Assembly (NCBI GenBank): GCA_016839515.1
Contig: JAEOUE010000116.1
Span: forward strand, 1 to 33,041
Direction of reading: 5' to 3'
From: Candidatus Hodarchaeum mangrovi
Lineage (GTDB): Archaea; Asgardarchaeota; Heimdallarchaeia; Hodarchaeales; Hodarchaeaceae
DNA length: 33,041 bases
Positions 3,232 to 26,549 of this stretch are shown one piece after another; the stretch's first letter is position 1, and the number at the start of each line of letters is the position of its first letter. Under the pieces are notes generated by a model. It was not told where the DNA came from and searched no databases. It worked only from the letters and a program-made list of their open reading frames with translations. A program made the position numbers and the translations under genes.

Positions 3232-3302
3232 CTCAACCATAATTCTATGAATTACTGCGTTCTCTTCTTAAACCATTGAATAAGACGAAGGATCAGAGAC
3301 AT

Positions 3303-6300
3303 ATGAGTTGTAAGATAATGAAATTGGGTAAATATTTAATCGTTTCAATATTAGGTCTCCAAATTATAGCTAGTGCCTTAATTTTATCCATTAATAATCC
3401 TGTAGTTGTAGGAGAATTCTCTAAACATCTACTAAGGGGATTAGAGTATCCTAATAATTTAGAAGAAAGTGTATACCATTCAGTTCCTAGATTAATGAAT
3501 GAATCCTTGGATTCTTATTCTTTGGTTAAACAAGAAACTTCTACTCCTTTAAAACCAAAAATTCTTGATTCATTTTCATTGCCAAGCTGGAACGGCTTAG
3601 GATTCTCATATCGAAAAAATATCACTATAAATCCAGCTAATATACCAATTGATTTATTAAATTTTCCAGTATTGATTGATTTAGAATCAGATCCTGATTT
3701 GGCAGGCATACAACAAATAAATGGAAATGATTTATTTTTTACCGATGCTCAAGGGAACAAACTGGCATTTGAGTTAGAATATTTTGATAAACAAAATCTC
3801 AATCTTAAAGCATGGGTAAAAACAGATATATCTAGCTCAAGTCCAACAGTAATTTCAATGTATTTTGGAAATTCAACCGTTAGTTCTCAAGCAAATCCAA
3901 CCGGAGTTTGGGGAGCTGATTATATGGGAGTTTGGCATTTAAATAACAACCCTGTAGGAGGCACAATGTTCGATAGTACCTCAAATAATAACGATGGTAC
4001 TCCAGGGGGAAGTATGACATCCAATGATCTTATCAAGGGATTAATAGGAAAAGCCATTGATTTTGATGGATCGAATGATTTAATTAATTTAGGAAATATT
4101 AATTCGAACCTTTGGACAGGAATTACAGTTGAGGCATGGGTTTTCCATGATGTTTTAGGAGATGATCGAGTGATATGTAAATCACCTGATTCAGTAACTG
4201 CTAATCATATTTTTTCTTTAGCCATTGAGACCAGTAACAGATTAAGAGTACGACTTTCAACAGATGGAACTGGTGGAACAGTAGCTTCGAGTTTAGACTC
4301 TTCTGGAACCATTTCTCTTGGAACATGGCATCATATTGCTTTTACATGGAGTAGTACATCTGAAAGGGTCTATTTATATATTGATGGAGCTCAAGATATA
4401 AATAATTTTGCCAAAGACGGTGATTCAATAATGGATTCTACAGTTCCAGTTATAATTGCCAATGTAAATAGTGGAACTGAGAACAGATATTTCGATGGAT
4501 TAATTGAAGAAGCGCGAATTATTAAATCAGCCTTGCCCTCTTCTTGGATAACTGTAGAGTATTTGAATCAGTTTAATCCCTATAAATTTTATTCAGTAGG
4601 AAATCTTGAAAGACCTAGCACATATGATCTCTTTAGATATTCAAAACAACTTACAATAGATCATTCTAAAGTTATAGGAACAGCTGACCATAATCTAATT
4701 AATATATTATTTGATATTTATGATCCAGATTTACGAGTTACTGGGAAATTACCAAATAATGGTGAAAATTTGGTATTTACAAACATCGATACAAAAAATA
4801 ATCTTTATTATGAAGTAGAGGAATGGAATCCGACCTACAATTCTACTCACGCAAGACTACGTGTATGGGTACAAGTTGATACACTTTTTGTGGATAAAAA
4901 TACTCATATCAAGATGTTCTATGGAAACCAAGCAAATTATGGATATTATAGACCTGATATTGTTTGGTCAGATTATTTAGGAGTATGGCATTTAGGTGAA
5001 TCAGTAATTGATGAAGGATCAGCTGTAAATGTGCATATAGATTCATCTACAAATAGTAATCATGGTAACCAGCATGGCAACGATGATATCACAGGAATGA
5101 GTGGATTAGCACAGAATTTAGATGGGACTAATGATTATATTGAAATGGGTGATCTTGATATTCTTGAATTACAAGGAGACCAATTTTTTACTTTATCTGG
5201 ATGGTTTTATCGAGATACTGCAACAACATCAGATGTAATAATCGATAAATTTTATCCACAAAGCCCAGATTATACTGGCTACTTGATTTACATTGATGAA
5301 ACAGATGGATTACTTCATTTTTATCAAGGAGATGATGATGATGATGGAATTCATATGGCTTCCTCAACAAATTTTAATACTGCACCTTCTGGGTGGTACA
5401 GCTTTTATATAACTTTTGATACAGGAGTTAATTCTGACACCTCGTCTTGGAATATTTATATTAATGGAAATGATGACACAGCAATCCGTGAACTATGGGG
5501 AATTGGAGCTCCAAGTTATTCAGGTAATGATGATTTCTATTCATCAAATAATCTTGCATCTTTTACAATTGGAGCACATCATAATCTTTCTAATTATTTT
5601 GATGGAAAGATAGATGAAATTCGCTTTATCCAAGAGGAGTTATCATCTGATCGAGTAGCAACAGAATATAACAATATAAAATCACCAGTTGAATTTTATA
5701 GTATAAGCAATGAACAAGAAAACGAAAATTGGTGGATCGATAGCTCATTCGGGAGGAAAAAGGATATTATTCTTGATAATTCTTATTTTGGATCAAATGA
5801 AGAAATGATTTTTCAATATCCTCGTGCACCTGGTTATACTGAAACTTGGAATCACTTTTCGAAGACTGGTGGAACACAGGATTATCAAACATATGACGAA
5901 CAAGTAGCTGATGATGATTCATCCTATATTTACACTACTGTTAATGATTCTTACCGCTACACTTCTTTTTTCATTAAGGGAATAAGTGATTTAGAAGGAG
6001 ATATAATAAGTTTAAGTGTAAAAACTCGTACAAGACGAACAGGGTCTATAATATCAGGGGAAACACGAAGTTTCATCCGATTAAACAATAATAATTACTA
6101 TGGAAGTTCACGTTGGCCATCATATAGTTATTCTACATTTACTGATACATGGACAACAAACCCATTAACATTATCTAGCTGGACATGGGACGACCTTGCA
6201 AATCTTCAGCTAGGAGTAAGAGGGAGGATAACCTATACTTCGACTATTCAGCTAAGAATCACACAAGTTTATGTAGAAATCAAATATAGTAATAATGGAC

Positions 6301-9300
6301 AGTTGTTTGATTATCCTTTATTGGTTGATATTAAAGATAGTGATTTAAAAACTGATATACAATCGAATGGAAAAGATATTGCCTTTTACGATAGTACAGG
6401 AACTAAATTAACCCATGAAATTTCAATCCTAGATCAAGACTTTAACTCTACACATGCTCATCTTCAAACTTGGGTAAAAATGAAAACACTTTCACTTAGC
6501 AGCAGTACTGTTCTCTCGATGTATTATGGCAATAGTACTATTGAAAGTCAAGAACAGAAATATGATACATGGAATTCTTTTAAAGCAGTTTATCATCTTG
6601 AAGAATCACCAGTAGGACAAATAGTTGATGATTCATTAAAAGGATTCAATTTGACCTCATCTGGTAGTATGAGTTCCGGTGACCTTGTTTCTGGTAAAAT
6701 TGGCAATGCAATAGATTTTGATGGCATCAACGATCAGCTATATTCAACCCAGAATATGCAATTTAATAGCTTTAGTATTTCAGCATGGATTAATTTTGAA
6801 AATGGTAATGGCTGGAGAACCATTTTGAACATTGATCGAACTGCGTCTTACCCTAACTGGCTTCAATTAGCAATTACAGATTTTATTCCGACAATAGATG
6901 ATTCTTCAGGTTCATATACATTTGGTAGTGCTTTAAGTACTTATACTTGGTATTATATCACATATATCTATGATAATAACACTAATGAATTACGTGTTTA
7001 TGTCAATGGGGTTCAAGCAGGTTCTATTAGGTTTTTAGTAATTTCTGAAAGAAATGATGATTATGCTCTTGGTGCATGGGGAACTTCAGACTGGTTTGAT
7101 GGACGAATTGATGAATTACGAATTGGATCTATTCCATATGAAAACGCTTGGATCAAGATGGATTACATTACCCAAGTAAATCCTGGTTCAGTTTTACATA
7201 TCGGAAATGAATATGACCATGAAGCACCCCTTATTAATGATTTTGGAGTTGACGATTTCGGTCAGGGCACTCCAATATTTTGGGCAAACGTAACAGATTG
7301 GGATTCAACTACCTCTGGTGTTAAAATACAAATCAACGAAACAGAATATTCTATGACAAAAAATGGAACAGGAATCTGGATTTACCAAGCTACAGTTGCA
7401 TATAATGATTATATTGAATATGCTATTAGTAATTCAACTGATAATAAAGGAAACTATCTCACTAAACCATCTAATACTAAATCAGTCACTTTTAATTACG
7501 ATACGATTAGCCCAACAGTAGTTGACTGGATTTATCTTACTGATACCAAAGAATTTAGAGCTAATGTATCAGATAGTTGGGGAATCATCGATACAGTTAT
7601 TCTAAATGTTACCTACCATGAAAATATGGGAGATCTGACTGATCTATGGGCTGTTATGAGAAATACAACTTATGGATATGTAAATGATACTATTTTTATG
7701 ATAGAAGGAACAATTAACTTTGTTGTGACTGTAAATGACACAAATGGAAACACATTCACTTCAGCTACTCATCCAGGATATGTAGCAAATAACCCGCCAA
7801 GTATCTCGAATCTTCAACTTTCTAAAAATCCTTTAACTTTAGATTTACCTGTAACAAGTAACGATACTCTATTTGTTTTATATGATTATGCTGATACCGA
7901 GAATGATCTAGAATTTGGGACGGAAATTCGATGGGAAAAATGGAACGGTTCACATTGGATCCTGCAATCAGCTTTCAATGATCGCAAAAATATTACTGCA
8001 GCTTCATTAATCCGTGGAGCAATTTGGCAGGTTCAGGTACACCCAAAAGACGGCAAAGATTTTGGTAATTGGGGTATAACAGGAAATATAACTATTCAAA
8101 ACTCAATCCCAATTGTAACAGGGATTTCTTTAACTCCAAGTGCCCCTATTACCTCCTCTAATTTAGTTGCTGCTTATGTCTGGTTAGACGCAGATACTGG
8201 AGATACTGAACAGGGAAGCCAAATTAGATGGTACCTTGATAATGGAAATGGATCTGGATATTTTTTGTTAACAGCATATAATAATCTAAAAACCTTACCT
8301 TTTAGTGTAACTAGCAAAGGTTATCAAGTTTACTTCAATGTTACCCCATCAGATGGAATTGGATTAGGTAATCAAGTCAAATCACAGATTATTACTATTC
8401 AAAATAGTCCTCCAAGTCTTATTGTTAAAATTAATGGCTTTTCAACTCCAGGAACTGTAGATAATGTTACAGATCTAAATGGAAGTTATATTTATACTGA
8501 CATCGATCTTGACAGTATCAATATTTCATCGTTGGAAATACGATGGTGGCGATATAATTTTTCAAGTAGTCAATTTGAAAATTATGTCAATAATACCTTT
8601 ATTATATCGAATACAATTACTAAAACAACTGATTTATGGCGTGTGGAAATGCGAGTAAGTGATGGCACTACCATAAGTTCGTGGTTTTCTTCTGCCACAA
8701 TAAGTATTGGCGTATCTCCCAATACTCCTCCTGAAGCTTTATTTGTAAACCTTACATCAAGTAATCCAGTCGCTGGGGGTTATCTGTATGCGAATTATAC
8801 CTATTATGATTTAAATGGAGATCCTGAAGCCAGTACAACATTTAAATGGTTTAGAAATGGAGTTCACCAGCCTCAATTTGATGGAATGCAGCAGATTTCT
8901 ACGTCTCTAATAAAAAGTGATAATTGGACTGTTTCAGTTCGTCCACAGGATATTTATAATGATTATGGAAACTGGAGTACAAGTGAAATAATTAAAATTT
9001 TAAATACAGCTCCTACAGTAATAACAGCGACAATATTTCCAGCTTCTAACGTGTATACATCAAATATTTTATTAGCTAATTTTCAAGTTGATGATATTGA
9101 TGAAGATAGTGTTACTACCTATTCAATTGTATGGTTGAATGGAACAAAAGAAATTTCAGAACTAAATAACCATACTGAAGTAACAGTAGCATTTACTAAG
9201 AAAGGAGAGGTATGGAAATATATTGTAAGAGTTTATGATGGAGAAGCATGGTCAAATAACTTTACTTCATCTTCAATAACAGTTTTAAACTCATTATCTT

Positions 9301-12300
9301 ACTTAGAAAGTGTTACTTTAATTGGTGGTCGTAACACCTCTCAAGATGTAGGATTTATTTACTCCTTCAAGGATATTGATAATGATATTATTGATACTGG
9401 AAAAACTAAGATTAATTGGACAATTGAATTTGAGGGTGGGGGGAATATTACTGTTAATGGAGTTTGGACACTCTCACATGTATATTTCTCGGCAGGTGAT
9501 TATATTACAATCCAAATCACTCCTCATGATGGAGAAAGTCTTGGATTGGTTTGGGAAAGTTATAGAGTAAGATTAATTATCGGAAATGCAATTCCTCAAG
9601 TTCAAGGACAGCCTAATATTCTCGCTCCTAATAATAGTACAATTTATTACGCATCAGGAAAATTATCTCTAAATTATTCAGCATATGATGCTGATTTTGG
9701 GGAAAGTAGTTCTTTATATAATCTTGATTTCGATCTTGAAGGATATGTTGTAGGAGCACAATACCGTTGGTATCGTAATGGAATTTTAATGTCTGATTTA
9801 ACTACTCCAACCGTTTCTGTTAATTATTTAGCAAGAGGACAAATATGGAAAGCTGGTGTTCGTATTAGAGACCGATTTGGAAGCTACAGCAAATGGGTAA
9901 ACTCTTCATCAATTTTAATCATTAATAGCTTACCATATATTACTTCGTTCCAAGTTTTAAATCCAAATGTTAGATCAGATCAAAATCTTGATATTAAATT
10001 CTCATTTTATGATTACGACCTAGATACAATAAACATTTCTAAAACACTCATTTATTGGTATAAGAATTCTTTCCTTATTTCAGGAACAGAAAATTCAACA
10101 GTAATCTCAGTAGAACAAGGGATAAATCTTTATTACGTGACTATCAGGCTTTATTCTGATTATTACATTCGAGGAGATAATATAACTGTAGAGGTCCAGC
10201 CTCACGATGGTCTTAACTGGGCTATTGTGGTCAATACAAGTTCTACAATTATGATTAGGAATGCAAAACCAACTGCTTATAACGTAAATCTATTAGCTAA
10301 TGGAACATCATCCATTGCTTATACTATTGATCCATTGAATGTTTCTTGGGCTTATTTTGATCTAGATAATGATCCTGAAGTTTCTATGGAAGCAAAAATC
10401 ATCTGGCGGAATAAAGGAATAATTCAACCAATGTTTGAAAATTTTACTTCTATTAATCCTATAAATACCCTAAAAGGAGACATTTGGAGTGTAGAAGTTC
10501 TTGTTTATGATGGATTTGAATGGTCTAGCATTGGGAAGAGTTCTCCACCAATATCAATAATTAATAGTCCACCAGTAGTATTTTCTGTCATAATAGAAAG
10601 TAATTCCCATAATAGGACAGAAACATATGCAGATACTGATTTAGTCTTAGATTTATTGGATAATGTGAATTTTACTGATGTTGATGGAGATTTTATACTC
10701 TGGTATGAATCAGACATTAATTGGTTTAGAAACTCAATTTATATTCCGATGTATGATAATTTAACAATCCTACCTAGTACTGCAACTACAAAAGGAGAAA
10801 TTTGGTATGCAGTCTTAAGAATTACTGATGATCTCAAGATCTGGTCGTTAAATATCTCTTCTCAAACGATTTTAATTGTAAATAAAGCTCCTATAGTTTT
10901 AGGCGTTTCACTTGATGGAAATGAATATAGCGGTTTCTTTGTGGAAGACGAAAACATCACGATAATTATTAATTTATTTGATGTAGACATTGGCGATAAT
11001 GATTCCTCATATCTCTATTGGAGTGTAAATGGAAATTATTTATCACAATTTGATAATCTTCGTACTATTTCAAGTAAATATACTACTCCAGGAGATATTT
11101 GGAGTTTAGAAGTAATTGCATCAGATGGTTTTAGAAATGCTACAACAATTTTTCCCTTTAGCTTTGATATTGAAAGCCGTCCAAGCATTGAAAATATTAC
11201 CACGGAGATTCTTCAAGAGTCTGATGGACAATATTTGATTTCATCACTTATAACTGATGCATTAAATCATTCTATTGAATTAGTTAGGTATAATTTATTT
11301 ATAAATGGAGCAATATTATCTGATTCTGGGTTTATGGCACCTAATTCTACAGGACATTGGAGATTTTCATATGATTTATTAAGCAATGAAAATAACAGCT
11401 ATTTTGGCACGATAGCGACTGTTTACATTACTGCACGATCAAATATAGGAGTAACAACTGTACAAAGTTTTAATTTCACTTTAATTGATGGAGTTGCTCC
11501 ACGAGTGTCTAAATCAGCTGGATCACTTGGTGTTTATTTCAAACCAGATAAAGATACAAATCCAACAAACTTGACTTTCTTTGCTGAAATTGAGGAATAT
11601 GGTTCAGGCGCTGAACAAATACTTCTTTTCTACTATTTTGAGCTAATAGAGGAAGGAGAAGGAGCTTTCTTAGCACAAGAAGATTATAATGTTGTAGAAA
11701 TGATATATCAACGAACTGTAGGTTTAGTACAGATTTATTCAGTAAGCATACCTTTTTCAGCTAATGGATCAAATTTTAATGTCTTATACTATGTTTCTAC
11801 ATTGGATTTGTCTGGAAATCTTAATGAAAACGCATTTGATATTAGAAATTATCCTGATCGAATAGAAAATGAGCGATTAATATATAGGGTACCAGGATTA
11901 CCTGAATGGGTTCTTTTAGTTGCAGGATTAGCTGTATTTCTAGTAATTATTGGTAGTATAGTTTATGTCAAATTTATTCGAAAACCTGAAATAGTAGGAC
12001 TTGATAAAGAACTAGTAATAGCAAAATTAAAAAACATCATAGATTCTGATGTTGTGAACGCTCTCGATACTCATACTATAGGAGTAGTTGTATCCTTTTT
12101 CGACCAACGTCATGGACCAATCCCAATAATCGTAATTCCTGAGATCCTAAAGGATAATTTTGCTAAGCTTGTTGAAATGTCTGATCGATCATTCAGCGTT
12201 ACAGGATTCTCTGAAGATTTTGAAATCGAAGTGCCTTCAGGTTATGATTTTGTTTTAGCCCTAGGTACTAGAATTAGTGTTTTAACCTATGGTTTTTCAC

Positions 12301-12566
12301 TTGAGCGTCCTGAAGCTAGAGGAGGAAGAGAAAATATCACTGTTAATTTTCTGATTCATAAAGAACTCTTCCCTCTCGTTAATCAATTTGTCCCTGAAAT
12401 TCAAAAAGAAGTACATCAAATACATATCATCATGGATAAGGAACCCAATGAAAAAGAAAAGATCTTAAAGAATATTTTTGAATTACGAAAATATCTTTCA
12501 AAGATTATTCTGTCTTATCAAGAAATTTATGGAACTACAGAGCTTTTATTAAGTGAGGAAAAATGA
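3303..12566 (+). CDS. Giant single-span surface protein: DUF2341-LamG x3, Ig-like array, longin-like cytosolic tail
   Basis: About 3,087 residues. The N-terminus is basic then hydrophobic (about 7-30), a signal peptide or anchor. Three units of DUF2341 strands followed by a LamG/concanavalin-like domain fill residues about 100-433, 444-800 and 815-1310; LamG hallmarks such as AIDFDGSNDLINLG and YFDGLIEEARI recur. The third unit carries an insert. About eleven Ig/cadherin-like modules of 95-113 residues follow (1495-2620), each opening with N-x-x-P and carrying W-Y/F-x-N-G and Y/V-D-G motifs, with many N-x-S/T sequons. After a membrane-proximal domain comes one transmembrane helix (2869-2893), then basic FIRK and a 190-residue cytosolic tail with FDQRHGPIPI, resembling a longin fold. 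A role as adhesin or receptor is inferred. The ATG at 3303 follows GAAGGA; a TTG at 3276 in the same frame has no ribosome site. The stop is 5 bases from the convergent GTPase gene. Confidence 0.85.
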   Translation: MSCKIMKLGKYLIVSILGLQIIASALILSINNPVVVGEFSKHLLRGLEYPNNLEESVYHSVPRLMNESLDSYSLVKQETSTPLKPKILDSFSLPSWNGLGFSYRKNITINPANIPIDLLNFPVLIDLESDPDLAGIQQINGNDLFFTDAQGNKLAFELEYFDKQNLNLKAWVKTDISSSSPTVISMYFGNSTVSSQANPTGVWGADYMGVWHLNNNPVGGTMFDSTSNNNDGTPGGSMTSNDLIKGLIGKAIDFDGSNDLINLGNINSNLWTGITVEAWVFHDVLGDDRVICKSPDSVTANHIFSLAIETSNRLRVRLSTDGTGGTVASSLDSSGTISLGTWHHIAFTWSSTSERVYLYIDGAQDINNFAKDGDSIMDSTVPVIIANVNSGTENRYFDGLIEEARIIKSALPSSWITVEYLNQFNPYKFYSVGNLERPSTYDLFRYSKQLTIDHSKVIGTADHNLINILFDIYDPDLRVTGKLPNNGENLVFTNIDTKNNLYYEVEEWNPTYNSTHARLRVWVQVDTLFVDKNTHIKMFYGNQANYGYYRPDIVWSDYLGVWHLGESVIDEGSAVNVHIDSSTNSNHGNQHGNDDITGMSGLAQNLDGTNDYIEMGDLDILELQGDQFFTLSGWFYRDTATTSDVIIDKFYPQSPDYTGYLIYIDETDGLLHFYQGDDDDDGIHMASSTNFNTAPSGWYSFYITFDTGVNSDTSSWNIYINGNDDTAIRELWGIGAPSYSGNDDFYSSNNLASFTIGAHHNLSNYFDGKIDEIRFIQEELSSDRVATEYNNIKSPVEFYSISNEQENENWWIDSSFGRKKDIILDNSYFGSNEEMIFQYPRAPGYTETWNHFSKTGGTQDYQTYDEQVADDDSSYIYTTVNDSYRYTSFFIKGISDLEGDIISLSVKTRTRRTGSIISGETRSFIRLNNNNYYGSSRWPSYSYSTFTDTWTTNPLTLSSWTWDDLANLQLGVRGRITYTSTIQLRITQVYVEIKYSNNGQLFDYPLLVDIKDSDLKTDIQSNGKDIAFYDSTGTKLTHEISILDQDFNSTHAHLQTWVKMKTLSLSSSTVLSMYYGNSTIESQEQKYDTWNSFKAVYHLEESPVGQIVDDSLKGFNLTSSGSMSSGDLVSGKIGNAIDFDGINDQLYSTQNMQFNSFSISAWINFENGNGWRTILNIDRTASYPNWLQLAITDFIPTIDDSSGSYTFGSALSTYTWYYITYIYDNNTNELRVYVNGVQAGSIRFLVISERNDDYALGAWGTSDWFDGRIDELRIGSIPYENAWIKMDYITQVNPGSVLHIGNEYDHEAPLINDFGVDDFGQGTPIFWANVTDWDSTTSGVKIQINETEYSMTKNGTGIWIYQATVAYNDYIEYAISNSTDNKGNYLTKPSNTKSVTFNYDTISPTVVDWIYLTDTKEFRANVSDSWGIIDTVILNVTYHENMGDLTDLWAVMRNTTYGYVNDTIFMIEGTINFVVTVNDTNGNTFTSATHPGYVANNPPSISNLQLSKNPLTLDLPVTSNDTLFVLYDYADTENDLEFGTEIRWEKWNGSHWILQSAFNDRKNITAASLIRGAIWQVQVHPKDGKDFGNWGITGNITIQNSIPIVTGISLTPSAPITSSNLVAAYVWLDADTGDTEQGSQIRWYLDNGNGSGYFLLTAYNNLKTLPFSVTSKGYQVYFNVTPSDGIGLGNQVKSQIITIQNSPPSLIVKINGFSTPGTVDNVTDLNGSYIYTDIDLDSINISSLEIRWWRYNFSSSQFENYVNNTFIISNTITKTTDLWRVEMRVSDGTTISSWFSSATISIGVSPNTPPEALFVNLTSSNPVAGGYLYANYTYYDLNGDPEASTTFKWFRNGVHQPQFDGMQQISTSLIKSDNWTVSVRPQDIYNDYGNWSTSEIIKILNTAPTVITATIFPASNVYTSNILLANFQVDDIDEDSVTTYSIVWLNGTKEISELNNHTEVTVAFTKKGEVWKYIVRVYDGEAWSNNFTSSSITVLNSLSYLESVTLIGGRNTSQDVGFIYSFKDIDNDIIDTGKTKINWTIEFEGGGNITVNGVWTLSHVYFSAGDYITIQITPHDGESLGLVWESYRVRLIIGNAIPQVQGQPNILAPNNSTIYYASGKLSLNYSAYDADFGESSSLYNLDFDLEGYVVGAQYRWYRNGILMSDLTTPTVSVNYLARGQIWKAGVRIRDRFGSYSKWVNSSSILIINSLPYITSFQVLNPNVRSDQNLDIKFSFYDYDLDTINISKTLIYWYKNSFLISGTENSTVISVEQGINLYYVTIRLYSDYYIRGDNITVEVQPHDGLNWAIVVNTSSTIMIRNAKPTAYNVNLLANGTSSIAYTIDPLNVSWAYFDLDNDPEVSMEAKIIWRNKGIIQPMFENFTSINPINTLKGDIWSVEVLVYDGFEWSSIGKSSPPISIINSPPVVFSVIIESNSHNRTETYADTDLVLDLLDNVNFTDVDGDFILWYESDINWFRNSIYIPMYDNLTILPSTATTKGEIWYAVLRITDDLKIWSLNISSQTILIVNKAPIVLGVSLDGNEYSGFFVEDENITIIINLFDVDIGDNDSSYLYWSVNGNYLSQFDNLRTISSKYTTPGDIWSLEVIASDGFRNATTIFPFSFDIESRPSIENITTEILQESDGQYLISSLITDALNHSIELVRYNLFINGAILSDSGFMAPNSTGHWRFSYDLLSNENNSYFGTIATVYITARSNIGVTTVQSFNFTLIDGVAPRVSKSAGSLGVYFKPDKDTNPTNLTFFAEIEEYGSGAEQILLFYYFELIEEGEGAFLAQEDYNVVEMIYQRTVGLVQIYSVSIPFSANGSNFNVLYYVSTLDLSGNLNENAFDIRNYPDRIENERLIYRVPGLPEWVLLVAGLAVFLVIIGSIVYVKFIRKPEIVGLDKELVIAKLKNIIDSDVVNALDTHTIGVVVSFFDQRHGPIPIIVIPEILKDNFAKLVEMSDRSFSVTGFSEDFEIEVPSGYDFVLALGTRISVLTYGFSLERPEARGGRENITVNFLIHKELFPLVNQFVPEIQKEVHQIHIIMDKEPNEKEKILKNIFELRKYLSKIILSYQEIYGTTELLLSEEK
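7788..11172 (+). repeat. Array of about eleven Ig/cadherin-like protein modules
   Basis: Module boundaries recur at about 7788, 8101, 8404, 8722, 9004, 9289, 9586, 9926, 10261, 10564 and 10882, a period of 282-340 bases. Each module reads roughly N-x-x-P, a hydrophobic strand, an acidic YxDxDxD-like loop, a tryptophan strand with a following N-G turn, a K-G-x-x-W strand, a YDG strand and an N-S/T-x-P junction. The copies are clearly diverged at DNA level, so this is an old protein repeat and not a recent tandem duplication. The likely role is a rigid extracellular stalk. Confidence 0.75.
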
Positions 12567-12571
12567 TTTAT

Positions 12572-14827
12572 TCAATTATCCTCTAAAAGAGCTAGGTAAT
12601 GCTTTAATTTTTCAGAAGTCTCATCAACTTCCTTTTCTTTTTTATCAACTTGTTCTGGTATGAATTTAGGGATACGATCTTTCCAACTTTTCTTCTGTTT
12701 AGCGGTAGCTTGAATAAATGTCTGAAGAGAAGCATGAATCAACCGGCTTGCAAAATCAAAAGCTCCATCAGTTTCAAGAGGGATTTGCATTCTATCTTTA
12801 ATTAAGTGACTAATTCCTTCAATAGATAGGCTTCCATCAATTTCAACATTTCCAATGGGATGTCCTCTCTGTAGAAACGATAAAATGTAATTAGCATTAC
12901 CATTTGGTTTTGGTTCTAAAGTAAATGCAACACCTTGACTATCTGGTAATAGAAGGTAGTTACCTTGAACCTGAACTTCCAATGGAACTTTGAATTCGGA
13001 TAACGGGATTTTTTTAATATCCATCGATCCTTCTTTCGGAGACGTAACTAAATCTTTTGTTGATTTTAATTTTTTGACTTTTAGACTCTGGATTGCCTTA
13101 TGAATAATATTCGCTGCAAAATCGAGAGAAGCTTTTCCACCTTCAAAGATTCCCAAAGTTAACATACTCAATTCATAAGCCATAAAGTAGATGAGCTCAT
13201 TTATTGTTACATTTGGTGAAAGAATTGACCCACCAATAAGCTCATATTTATTTTGACCAGTAAAGATATAGAAATTTAATTGAACATTCACAGCTTCCTC
13301 CCCAGCTAACTCTATTCTAAATCCGAGGTCACGAGTATCTGGCAAAGTTATTATCCCCTCAATATTTTCTGAAATCACAGGAATATCGATACTAGCTTTT
13401 TCAATTGGCTTTTCTTTGGCTGGAGGTAGGACAATTTCTTCTTTAACTTTCTCTTTCTGCTTTTCTTTTACTTTTCGCTCTTCTCTTAAATCCTTTAAAT
13501 AACCCTCAGCAATTTGTGCTATAGATAAATTCGGACGTTCTGTAGCAATAACTAAACATTGAACCATCTCATCTTCAGCGATTAAGTTTTTAAGATATGC
13601 ATTAAAAAGTTCCGTAATTCGAAATTTATTCAGAGTACTAATATGTTTTAATTTTTGGTTCTTAACAAATGGGATGTATTTTAATATGACATTTAGTACT
13701 AGAGGAACAGGGATCCCAGATCTAGCTGCCATTTCAAAGAGATCAACATACCCAGAATTCATTAAATCAATTGCTTGTGCTTTTTCAATACGATAATAAT
13801 CAATAAGATGAACAATTTGCTTATTTTCTAATTCTTTCTCAATGGTAAGAGATTCAGAGGAAACAACTTTTATTTCTTCCGTTACAGTCTCAGGTTGTTT
13901 AGGAAAGGAGGATTGGTATGTAGAAGAAGATTTACTGGCTTCTGAAATAAAATTTTCATTTTGAACTGGCTCTGGTGTCATTTTATTATTTAGGGAATTT
14001 TCCGCAAAAGCTTTAGCTTCAGCTTGAGGTTTATTAGTAACAGCAGTGGACAAAAGGGATTGGAGGCGTTGTAAAATGGCAGGATCTCCAGCTTTAGATT
14101 TATCAGCTTGCATTATTGAAATTGTATGTGATCCAACAGGTTGATCTGAAGTTATTGCTGCTTCTGGTTTCTTTAAAATAATTGAACTATCAGCATATTC
14201 CTCAATCAAACCGATTTTACGCCCTTCTACAAATTCACTCTCTGAAAGCGAAGGCATTACGAGTTCAAAGATTCTTCCAAATGCATCAATAACTGTTTCA
14301 GGTTTATAAATCGTCGTTCTAAAAAATCTTAATGATTTAGGATTATATTCAAGTTGAAATTGTTCCTTTAATTGAGAATGAATACTTTCATAATTTGGGC
14401 TAGCACGAAGTAAATCATTTTTATGAAGAAAAACAAAGACTTCCGCTTCAGGTGAAAAAGTATTCAGTTTTTCTAAGCATGCTGCAAAATATTGAATCGA
14501 ATTATTTCGGGTTGTTTTATTTGCAACATCAATTAAATAAATAAAAGTTTTTACAGAAGAAAAAACAAACGGACTAAAGCCGCTTAGAAACCTCTTTAGA
14601 AAAATCTTCTGTCCTCCAAGGTCAACGATGTTAATTGGAGTATCTTTCACATTAAGTGATAGTCTTTCATAGTTTATTGTAGCAGATAGGGAACTAACTT
14701 CCTCAGTTCTCTTTTTTAAAAAGAAAATACGTTTAACCGCTGTTTTACCTGCTTCAGAAAGACCAGCGATTAGAATCTTATAACCTAACCTTTGAGTAAT
14801 TTCTGAATCCGAAACCCATTCGCTCAC
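12572..14827 (-). CDS. Large Rag/Gtr-like GTPase with long C-terminal extension
   Basis: A 751-residue protein. The N-terminal 195 residues are a GTPase domain with G1 GLSEAGKT (22-29), a switch-I Thr at 50, G3 DLGGQ (69-73), G4 HKND (135-138) and G5 TTIYK (171-175). The H-K-x-D form of G4 and the GGQ switch II are typical of the Rag/Gtr1 branch rather than Rab or Ras. Residues 200-330 look disordered. Residues 335-455 are helical and followed by a Lys/Glu coil. Residues 491-582 and 622-706 form a duplicated domain, each ending with a D-F-A-x-x-x-I/L-I-H helix. No lipidation motif is seen. The start is GTG after AGGGA. The gene is convergent with the giant surface-protein gene and divergent from a second Rag-like GTPase 158 bases away. 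Joint signalling with those neighbours is inferred from position and family. Confidence 0.85.
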   Translation of the reverse strand: MSEWVSDSEITQRLGYKILIAGLSEAGKTAVKRIFFLKKRTEEVSSLSATINYERLSLNVKDTPINIVDLGGQKIFLKRFLSGFSPFVFSSVKTFIYLIDVANKTTRNNSIQYFAACLEKLNTFSPEAEVFVFLHKNDLLRASPNYESIHSQLKEQFQLEYNPKSLRFFRTTIYKPETVIDAFGRIFELVMPSLSESEFVEGRKIGLIEEYADSSIILKKPEAAITSDQPVGSHTISIMQADKSKAGDPAILQRLQSLLSTAVTNKPQAEAKAFAENSLNNKMTPEPVQNENFISEASKSSSTYQSSFPKQPETVTEEIKVVSSESLTIEKELENKQIVHLIDYYRIEKAQAIDLMNSGYVDLFEMAARSGIPVPLVLNVILKYIPFVKNQKLKHISTLNKFRITELFNAYLKNLIAEDEMVQCLVIATERPNLSIAQIAEGYLKDLREERKVKEKQKEKVKEEIVLPPAKEKPIEKASIDIPVISENIEGIITLPDTRDLGFRIELAGEEAVNVQLNFYIFTGQNKYELIGGSILSPNVTINELIYFMAYELSMLTLGIFEGGKASLDFAANIIHKAIQSLKVKKLKSTKDLVTSPKEGSMDIKKIPLSEFKVPLEVQVQGNYLLLPDSQGVAFTLEPKPNGNANYILSFLQRGHPIGNVEIDGSLSIEGISHLIKDRMQIPLETDGAFDFASRLIHASLQTFIQATAKQKKSWKDRIPKFIPEQVDKKEKEVDETSEKLKHYLALLEDN

Positions 14828-14985
14828 GATAATCCCTTGATTTTATAGCTTATTGAGAAAGTAATTTGTCTATTGAGATGTATTATCATATTTCTATGAG
14901 TTATGAATTATAGATTCTTTTTAATGCAATGCTAACTAATATATTAGAAAAGCTTAATTAAAAGAATATCATTTCAAAAATCAAT

Positions 14986-15897
14986 ATGGCAACTCTTCAA
15001 ACAATTCAAAAGGTAGTCTTTCTAGGCTTAGGCCATTCTGGGAAATCAAGCATTAAATCAGTTGTTTTTGAAGGTAAAAGCCCAGAAGAGGTTATGGATT
15101 ACGCTGCGACAATTAACTATACCCGTTCGACAAAAGGGGTTTTAGACAGTGCGTTTCAAATATTCGATTGTGGAGGGCAAGAGAATTTTATTTCAGTATT
15201 TGTAGGTGATCAAGCAGAATTTATCTTTTCTGATGTAATCGTGTTAATCTGGGTTGTGGATGTCTCTAATATGGATCAAATTAGTACTAGTAAATTCTAT
15301 TTTGACCATGCTCTTAAGAGACTAAATCAATATTCCCCTGAAGCGGAAATCTATGTTTTTTTTCATAAAAATGATTTGATTATACAAAATCTTCAAAAAC
15401 AAGTAATAGAAACAATGGAACAATATTTTGTTTCTCCTTATGATAATAAAATCACCTATCGTGCAACTTCTATATTTAATCAGTCTATTTATCTTGCGAT
15501 TGGAGAAATTATTCGTACTTTGATGATAAAGTCAACTAAAGCTCAAACTGTAAGCGAGGCTATTCGAGAATTTTTAAAACAGAATAAAGAGCTAGGAGGA
15601 GTCTCGATTTATACAGCAGAAGAGGGTCTTCCAGTTTTTGAGGAAGGCGAACTAGCAGAACAAATAATTATCCCCGCTAATTTGTGTTTAACAACAAATG
15701 AAAGGATTGGGTCTGAATTTAGTGTTACAGATGTTTTTAAAACCACTATTGAAACTAATGACTATATTTTTGTTTTTCAACATTTAAAAACAACTCAAGA
15801 ACTCCTTTTATCAGGGATTGCACGAAAAATTGCCCCCTTGCAATATGTTATGGTAAAAATGGAACAACTAGCAACTATTGTGAAAGAGTTATTATAA
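14986..15897 (+). CDS. Rag/Gtr-like small GTPase with roadblock-like C-terminal domain
   Basis: A 303-residue protein. The GTPase domain occupies residues 8-180, with G1 GLGHSGKS (14-21), switch-I Thr42 within ATINYTR, G3 DCGGQ (61-65), G4 HKND (127-130) and G5 ATSIF (160-164). These motifs, particularly DCGGQ and H-K-x-D, match eukaryotic RagA/Gtr1. Residues about 203-303 have the strand-helix-strand-helix order expected of a roadblock domain: a strand pair with VSIYTAEEGLPVF, a helix near 222-240, strands IFVFQHL and ELLLSGIA, and a terminal helix. Eukaryotic Rag GTPases have the same GTPase-roadblock order and dimerise through it. There is no clear ribosome binding site, so it may be leaderless. 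Its partner could be the divergent 751-residue GTPase; that is inference. Confidence 0.87.
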   Translation: MATLQTIQKVVFLGLGHSGKSSIKSVVFEGKSPEEVMDYAATINYTRSTKGVLDSAFQIFDCGGQENFISVFVGDQAEFIFSDVIVLIWVVDVSNMDQISTSKFYFDHALKRLNQYSPEAEIYVFFHKNDLIIQNLQKQVIETMEQYFVSPYDNKITYRATSIFNQSIYLAIGEIIRTLMIKSTKAQTVSEAIREFLKQNKELGGVSIYTAEEGLPVFEEGELAEQIIIPANLCLTTNERIGSEFSVTDVFKTTIETNDYIFVFQHLKTTQELLLSGIARKIAPLQYVMVKMEQLATIVKELL

Positions 15898-25799: not shown

Positions 25800-26549
25800 T
25801 TAGGCATCAAAAATTTTATTACTTTCTGAATTATAGTACACATATTCTTCAACAAGAATAGATAAATCTTTACTATTCTTTGATAAAAAAGTGAATATAT
25901 CATCTACAAACTTCATTAATGCAATCTTTGCTCTAGAATCCATTGGTAGAGGAAACTCTTTTAGTATTTTATTTTTTAGGAAGATCAATTTTTTTCTATC
26001 GATTTCTGATTGAATCTTTCGTACTTCGGAATCGAAATCCGTCTCACGTAACCATGGATAATATAGAAAAAGCTCACTTCCCATTGTTTTGTTTGAAAAG
26101 CTATCTTCAAAATCAATTGCCCAAATTTGGTCTGAAGTTATAAGATAATTAGCCCCATGCCGATCTAAAGCTCCTATCCAGGCCTCAAATACAATTAATT
26201 CCTTTAACTTTGTTTCTATCCTGTTTCTACTCTTCTGTAATTCTTCACCTCCCTCAATCCAAAATTGGAGTAAGCCATAAGAATGTCCTATTTTTGATAA
26301 TATAGATTGAGGAATTGGTATTTCAAGAAATTGGGCTAATATGGAAATAATATATTCAGTTAAAAGAATTTTAGGACTTAACTTTTTCCATAACCATTTA
26401 TTATTTTCAGTATCAGTAAAAACAAAGGCTTTTTTTTTATAATTTGTTCCTCTGACAGAAATTGTATCGATGGAGTCCACTAATGAGAGAATTTTCTCGT
26501 GTGAGAATATTGGATAGATTTTGATGTCTTCTTGAGTGGAACCTTCCAT
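25800..26549 (-). CDS. HipA/PI-kinase-like protein or lipid kinase
   Basis: A 249-residue protein with the catalytic core of the HipA/phosphatidylinositol kinase-like group. ALDRHGANYLI gives D129-R-H-x-x-N134 (catalytic loop), and WAIDFEDSF gives the metal-binding Asp146. Upstream, WLWKKLSP offers Lys55/Lys56 for ATP, preceded by VRGTNYKKKAFVF as a glycine-loop equivalent. GLLQFWIEGGEEL (92-104) resembles the hinge and following helix. Residues 155-245 are helical. The substrate (protein or lipid) is not evident, and there is no HipB-like antitoxin gene nearby. GGTGA lies six bases before the ATG. It is the first gene of an operon with the cysteine-cluster gene; a short hairpin lies upstream. 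Confidence 0.7.
   Translation of the reverse strand: MEGSTQEDIKIYPIFSHEKILSLVDSIDTISVRGTNYKKKAFVFTDTENNKWLWKKLSPKILLTEYIISILAQFLEIPIPQSILSKIGHSYGLLQFWIEGGEELQKSRNRIETKLKELIVFEAWIGALDRHGANYLITSDQIWAIDFEDSFSNKTMGSELFLYYPWLRETDFDSEVRKIQSEIDRKKLIFLKNKILKEFPLPMDSRAKIALMKFVDDIFTFLSKNSKDLSILVEEYVYYNSESNKIFDA

Follow-up and report, generated by a model that had tools for sequence, protein, structure and literature searches.

The window analysed here, a 33,041 nt stretch of contig JAEOUE010000116.1 (C28) from the 4.0 Mb, 348-contig genome of Candidatus Hodarchaeum mangrovi, harbours a trio of genes comprising one for a giant putative surface protein, predicted to end in a cytosolic longin domain, and two for GTPases of the Rag type. 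The giant gene and that of the longer GTPase converge across a gap of 5 bases (12567-12571), while the latter is divergent from the gene for the shorter GTPase, in agreement with the layout given for the giant, 751-aa and 303-aa genes in the initial annotation. The features of the trio are listed below, in window positions.

3303..12566, + strand: giant protein gene, with signal-like N-terminus, LamG/DUF2341 head, eleven-module stalk, one span and longin tail (open reading frame (ORF) calling, Pfam, hydropathy, self-search)
3570..7172, + strand: head with three DUF2341 and three LamG stretches, at approximately residues 90-1290, the limits being approximate and taken from the best stretches listed (Pfam)
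7788..11153, + strand: stalk of eleven tandem modules of ~100 aa, residues 1496-2617 (iterative self-search)
11889..11984, + strand: predicted membrane span, residues 2863-2894 (hydropathy)
11976..12563, + strand: cytosolic tail, residues 2892-3087 (196 residues), a predicted longin domain (structure model, PDB comparison)
12114..12119, + strand: GP motif, residues 2938-2939, between tail strands 1 and 2 (alignments, tail model)
12318..12320, + strand: codon of Arg3006 (tail residue 115), in the predicted beta4-beta5 loop (alignments, tail model)
12572..14827, - strand: long Rag GTPase, 751 aa, with a G domain at 14246-14779 followed by a low-confidence stretch, a helical part and two alpha/beta repeats (Pfam; model with a predicted template modelling score, pTM, of 0.45)
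14986..15897, + strand: short Rag GTPase, 303 aa, with a G domain at 15010-15582 followed by a C-terminal domain (Pfam)

The giant ORF may start at the ATG at 3303, giving 3,087 aa, or at a TTG at 3276, giving 3,096 aa. Pfam finds three Laminin_G_3 (E = 1.7e-38) and three DUF2341 (9.8e-18) stretches in its product, in line with the three DUF2341-LamG units first described, and hydropathy predicts the single membrane crossing that had also been proposed, besides a signal-like N-terminal segment within residues 5-39. A further claim was of about eleven Ig-like modules. The number is correct, since the iterative self-search ends with eleven, superseding the five module starts counted initially by pattern; the Ig name finds no counterpart in Pfam, which gives the stalk modules none. 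The self-search profile also drifts onto residues 128-247, 474-599 and 1011-1132, and weakly onto 1194-1265.

Both neighbouring genes encode Rag-like GTPases of the sizes originally reported, with matches to Gtr1_RagA above the cut-off for the 751-aa (1.4e-30) and 303-aa (1.4e-38) proteins. RagA/Gtr1 is nearest to each by sequence, and to the long Rag by fold as well. The long protein carries the motifs GLSEAGKT, DLGGQ and HKND and the short one GLGHSGKS, DCGGQ and HKND; the P-loop and GGQ are kept in all 63 Rag-type G domains compared, the HKxD pattern being missed in three, none of which comes from a trio. The model of the long Rag is weak (predicted local distance difference test, pLDDT, 70; pTM 0.45), with good structural comparison over residues 9-203 only, and the naming of its C-terminal repeats was dropped on account of this poor quality. 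A roadblock-like end of the 303-aa protein, part of the initial annotation, was not established: among this protein and 12 relatives, one member each matched SLM4 (0.049) and LAMTOR5 (0.096) amid other weak families, and in a PDB profile search nitrogenase chains (0.18-0.20) ranked before a dynein roadblock chain (0.97).

The longin-like tail is upheld by a confident structure prediction (pLDDT 90.4, pTM 0.86), made from an alignment of 46 rows (A3), and by its comparison with the PDB. The closest structures are an Asgard (Loki) longin and chains of folliculin, Lst4, GATOR1 and C9orf72-SMCR8, the rows of the last four groups ranking above those of the exchange factor DENND1A and of TRAPP. As modelled, the tail has the longin fold of the FLCN, NPRL2 and SMCR8 group, and looks like the longin domains of the corresponding GTPase-activating proteins (GAPs), folliculin, GATOR1 and C9orf72-SMCR8; the folliculin domain is held to inactivate Rag GTPases in human cells. 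Searches of PDB sequences with tail alignments returned neither GATOR1 nor C9orf72-SMCR8 chains, both emerging by fold alone; MAP kinases, returned by a single-sequence search of the same set, were rejected as chance matches (best E = 0.032). The final longin helix of the model stops at tail residue 185 of 196, leaving no space for a C-terminal DENN domain.

Among 25 tails aligned as A2, the lowest identity to that of the window being 22%, ten matched the Pfam Folliculin family (PF11704) at E <= 1, the best at 8.7e-4. Because tail scores fall under the Folliculin cut-off, and there is no space for the DENN domain, we do not class the tail as a folliculin. The same profile matched at E <= 1 in 38 of 52 genomes, and above the cut-off in 20, while five of 14 control genomes had matches, none above it. 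All but one of the 27 above-cut-off matches lie in frames of 375-458 aa, the other being in one of 234 aa, and tail genes are among the weaker matches. Soluble folliculin-like proteins of 422-442 aa are found in a recurring cluster (L099-L103 and L108-L112; for instance L100:121-5479), which in L100 also includes a roadblock protein (PF03259, 3.9e-5), a zinc-ribbon protein, a 460-aa protein with no Pfam match and Nre.

The A2 alignment has seven invariant columns, G36, F42, G47, P50, F78, R115 and G117. In the model, R115 lies between strands b4 (98-110) and b5 (118-128); its column holds arginine in all 46 rows of A3 and, when the window's protein is aligned with 66 giants from the protein database, arginine in 66 sequences and a gap in one. 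A further alignment (A4) combined seven tails with 13 of 15 fetched folliculin-like sequences, and has only four invariant columns, G, P, R and G. Searched against PDB sequences, its profile ranks human folliculin on top (1.5e-4 and 1.6e-4), with the next match at 0.2, and places folliculin FFIKDSLARGFQ over the ARG loop of the tails; the aligned folliculin arginine is residue 164 when 6ulg_L is numbered from its printed start, residue 141. Arg164 has been given as the catalytic arginine of FLCN (PMC8107286, PMC7464330), its loop being likened to the one bearing NPRL2 Arg78 (PMC7464330), and has been equated with SMCR8 Arg147 (PMC8336837), which points at the nucleotide of ARF1 (PMC8213707); active complexes of FLCN and GATOR1 with Rags had not yet been trapped at the time of the latter study. 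Similarly, a preprint takes an arginine located between strands 4 and 5 of the longin to be the hallmark of its monomeric DENN GAPs (PMC12803157). Judged by alignment and model, the tail has an arginine in its predicted beta4-beta5 loop at the position that is catalytic in longin-domain GAPs. One of the A4 sequences (L113:4371-5450) is a Ras-family GTPase-longin fusion that keeps the ARGG loop and matches Folliculin at 8.9e-5, just under the cut-off; from its sequence, this is possibly a GTPase carrying its own GAP.

The initial annotation proposed conservation of the neighbourhood as a check. The same trio in the same order is present in four other genomes of the window's genus (G001, G002, G008 and G011), is rearranged in two more (G007 and G010), and has similar counterparts in two other families. 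Eight of 14 loci fetched from these families, f3 and f5, have the tail gene and a long Rag on the same strand with a short Rag opposite; another (L122) has a tail and long Rag, and the other five a single-domain Rag of 180-199 aa. Looser associations include a 400-aa tail gene ~6 kb from a Rag pair in G005 and a second cluster, of two tails and another Rag, in G000, and comparable Rag pairs are present with no tail in view (G000:C186, G011:C79, G010:C157, G003:C98 and G009), mostly near contig ends. A count drawing on 73 tail matches in 33 genomes and 183 of 198 Rag rows found a Rag within 3 kb of 34 tail genes, against 1.42 expected from Rag density, and within 6 kb of 38, against 2.18 expected, under a null that ignores shared descent and contig ends. 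By family, Rags lay within 3 kb of 10/35 tails in f1, 0/1 in f2, 7/7 in f3 and 17/30 in f5, and at least one such tail was found in 26 of the 33 tail-bearing genomes. The spread over about ten gene orders in three families guards against shared descent as the source of the excess. At least 16 of the 66 giants from the protein database are apparently on the same contig as a relative of the long Rag, among the matches listed (120 of 146), contig identity being judged by the size of the longest contig alone and a complete chromosome being excluded. The Rag partners of f1 trios and of f3 and f5 trios fall in separate clades (FastTree, midpoint-rooted); the link to the tail has therefore either been maintained in more than one Rag subfamily or been formed anew, and descent of the trio as one operon, its partners orthologous in every family, is not supported.

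Several other genes accompany these elements. Two tail genes of the window's genome flank genes for a HEAT-repeat protein of 893 aa and for a Rag of a third kind, 316 aa long (L036:6893-10903). Some long and short Rag pairs adjoin a set of genes of ~311, ~1140 and ~445 aa (L088:11190-19218, also L063 and L067), of which, in L088, the 441-aa product matches Tubulin/FtsZ (5.8e-19) and the other two no family. Upstream of f3 and f5 tail genes is a gene of 243-247 aa (L114:584-1315, with others of like size in L115, L116, L122 and L123), whose L114 product has a weak match to the Ras family (8.3e-6). A tail fragment with a TGA adjoining a short Rag (L062, G011:C41:26818-27036) is probably a decayed receptor gene, and four loci (L038, L055, L056 and L058) have tandem pairs of distant tail genes followed by a gene of ~960-1060 aa. 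No Rag lies close to these, which represent a different use of the tail. Elsewhere in the window, a 249-aa ORF (25800-26549, - strand) has weak, below-cut-off matches to PI3/PI4-kinase (8.8e-4) and HipA-like (2.6e-3) families.

The tail was matched at E <= 0.001 in 33 of the 56 genomes first searched, and is found in named Candidatus Hodarchaeota and Heimdallarchaeota metagenome-assembled genomes of the Hodarchaeales lineage (12 loci). In a search of 227 genomes across the phylum, with at most 15 candidates scored per genome, 55 had an A2 match at E <= 1e-8. A distribution throughout the Asgard archaea is not supported, all matches with E < 1e-13 being within the window's class; those outside it lie in frames of 211-505 aa. 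These archaea are relatives of the lineage held to be nearest to eukaryotes.

The predicted fold, aligned arginine and adjoining Rag genes suggest that the giant protein likely passes outside signals to the Rags. On balance, we think it somewhat more likely than not that it is a membrane-spanning receptor with a cytosolic end acting as a folliculin-type GAP for the neighbouring Rags, a reading that draws on observed gene linkage and an observed arginine, on a predicted span, fold and loop position, and on inference as regards the signal, binding and any GAP activity. An external partner would attach to the LamG/DUF2341 head and eleven-module stalk, and this attachment or tension would alter the pairing or exposure of the tail. 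Arg3006 would enter the nucleotide pocket of one Rag, like SMCR8 Arg147 in that of ARF1 and like FLCN Arg164 and NPRL2 Arg78 in the role ascribed to them with Rags, and speed GTP hydrolysis, and the Rag pair would then relay the state of the surface to the cell interior. The surface signalling of the initial annotation thus gains a conserved neighbourhood and a predicted longin fold, the signalling itself still being something we infer.

A number of observations weigh against a receptor GAP. The window's own tail has no Folliculin match at E <= 1, and when ten tails were rescanned, four had no match and the six that did scored 12.0-17.9 bits, under the cut-off of 23.3. The first place in the PDB comparison is taken, tied, by the Loki longin, of uncharacterised activity; a Foldseek search of the model gave no matches at E <= 0.001, with unrelated LOV proteins within the first ten, and the tail-only A2 profile retrieved two designed proteins and no folliculin from PDB sequences. 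As its 13 folliculin-like rows were chosen for matching Folliculin, A4 is a bridge and not an independent test. The arginine is also present in the Ras-longin fusion, and may therefore be general to a wider longin group. Known longin GAPs act as longin pairs, and no partner longin was identified for this tail. Finally, 39 of the 73 tails, some on short contigs, have no Rag within 3 kb, including 25 of the 35 in the window's genus.

The main alternative makes the tail, instead of a GAP, an anchor that holds Rags at the membrane or a platform for their nucleotide exchange, similar to Ragulator or TRAPP; the receptor would gather them at the membrane where it has bound ligand, and the arginine would be structural or for docking. 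Platforms of longin and roadblock domains mainly serve for exchange and scaffolding (PMC10933270), that same Asgard longin ranks first in the PDB comparison, and an arginine between glycines in a turn could be structural; yet the rows of the GAP group rank above DENND1A and TRAPP, and the arginine has a catalytic counterpart in the alignment. From sequence and model the tail looks like a GAP-type longin rather than only a recruiting scaffold, and we judge the anchor or exchange platform rather unlikely. Less plausible still, and quite improbable in our view, is inside-out control, in which binding of Rags to the tail, depending on the nucleotide they carry, would govern how adhesive the giant surface protein is, much as talin governs integrins: the extracellular part, with its LamG stretches and long stalk, is adhesive-looking, and the partner Rag varies while the tail is retained, but such control does not need an invariant arginine. 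Chance preservation of the neighbourhood through common ancestry, with the tail serving some other purpose such as sorting or anchoring of the giant protein, would suit related genomes and the many genus tails distant from a Rag, but is very hard to reconcile with 34 pairings against 1.42 expected, in three families, about ten arrangements and different Rag subfamilies, or with the differing genes beyond the trio in the window and G001, G002, G008 and G011.

The predicted fold and the arginine of the tail make a definite enzymatic prediction, open to simple assay. More tentatively, it is possible that the Asgard branch nearest eukaryotes has transmembrane receptors that switch off Rag GTPases through a folliculin-type GAP, an outside-in small-GTPase pathway pre-dating eukaryotes, and that its longin GAPs are ancestral to the folliculin, NPRL2 and SMCR8 that act in nutrient sensing in the cytosol. 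Were this true, no earlier case of a pathway from a receptor to a small GTPase would, to our knowledge, have been recognised in archaea, and the Rag-GAP machinery of mTORC1 signalling might have its root here. No title or abstract listed in the literature searched describes such a receptor, subscription papers and preprints being thinly covered there, which makes this weak evidence of novelty.

The trio resembles the longin-domain GAPs FLCN-FNIP (Lst7-Lst4), GATOR1 NPRL2-NPRL3 and C9orf72-SMCR8 in its predicted longin fold, in the beta4-beta5 arginine aligned with FLCN Arg164 and in the adjoining Rag genes. It differs in that the longin forms the end of a membrane-spanning surface protein and scores under the Folliculin cut-off, with no room for DENN or identified partner longin, and with a predicted activity. 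Asgard soluble folliculin-like proteins of about 375-458 aa (for instance G000:C238, L099) share the GP and ARG motifs of the tails, and score above the Folliculin cut-off in 20 of 52 genomes; unlike the tails they have no span noted, and in the genus they lie in another gene cluster. Plexins, single-span receptors with an internal GAP domain for small GTPases, are alike in layout, but their domain has the RasGAP fold and acts on Rap/Ras, whereas the tail is a predicted longin, its best structural matches being longins. The soluble MglB is a roadblock protein, not a receptor tail. The likeness of MglA-MglB of Myxococcus to the trio is that of a prokaryotic small GTPase with a GAP of roadblock/longin fold (PMC9481161). 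Asgard Rag-like GTPases, longin folds and GTPase-longin fusions were described by Tran et al. 2024 (PMC10933270), who report a single operon pairing two Rag-like genes in MK-D1, where GTPase genes are generally not in operons with longin or roadblock genes; the passages of that paper available contain no transmembrane longin receptor. By contrast, the gene layout described here repeatedly pairs Rags with one class of membrane protein.
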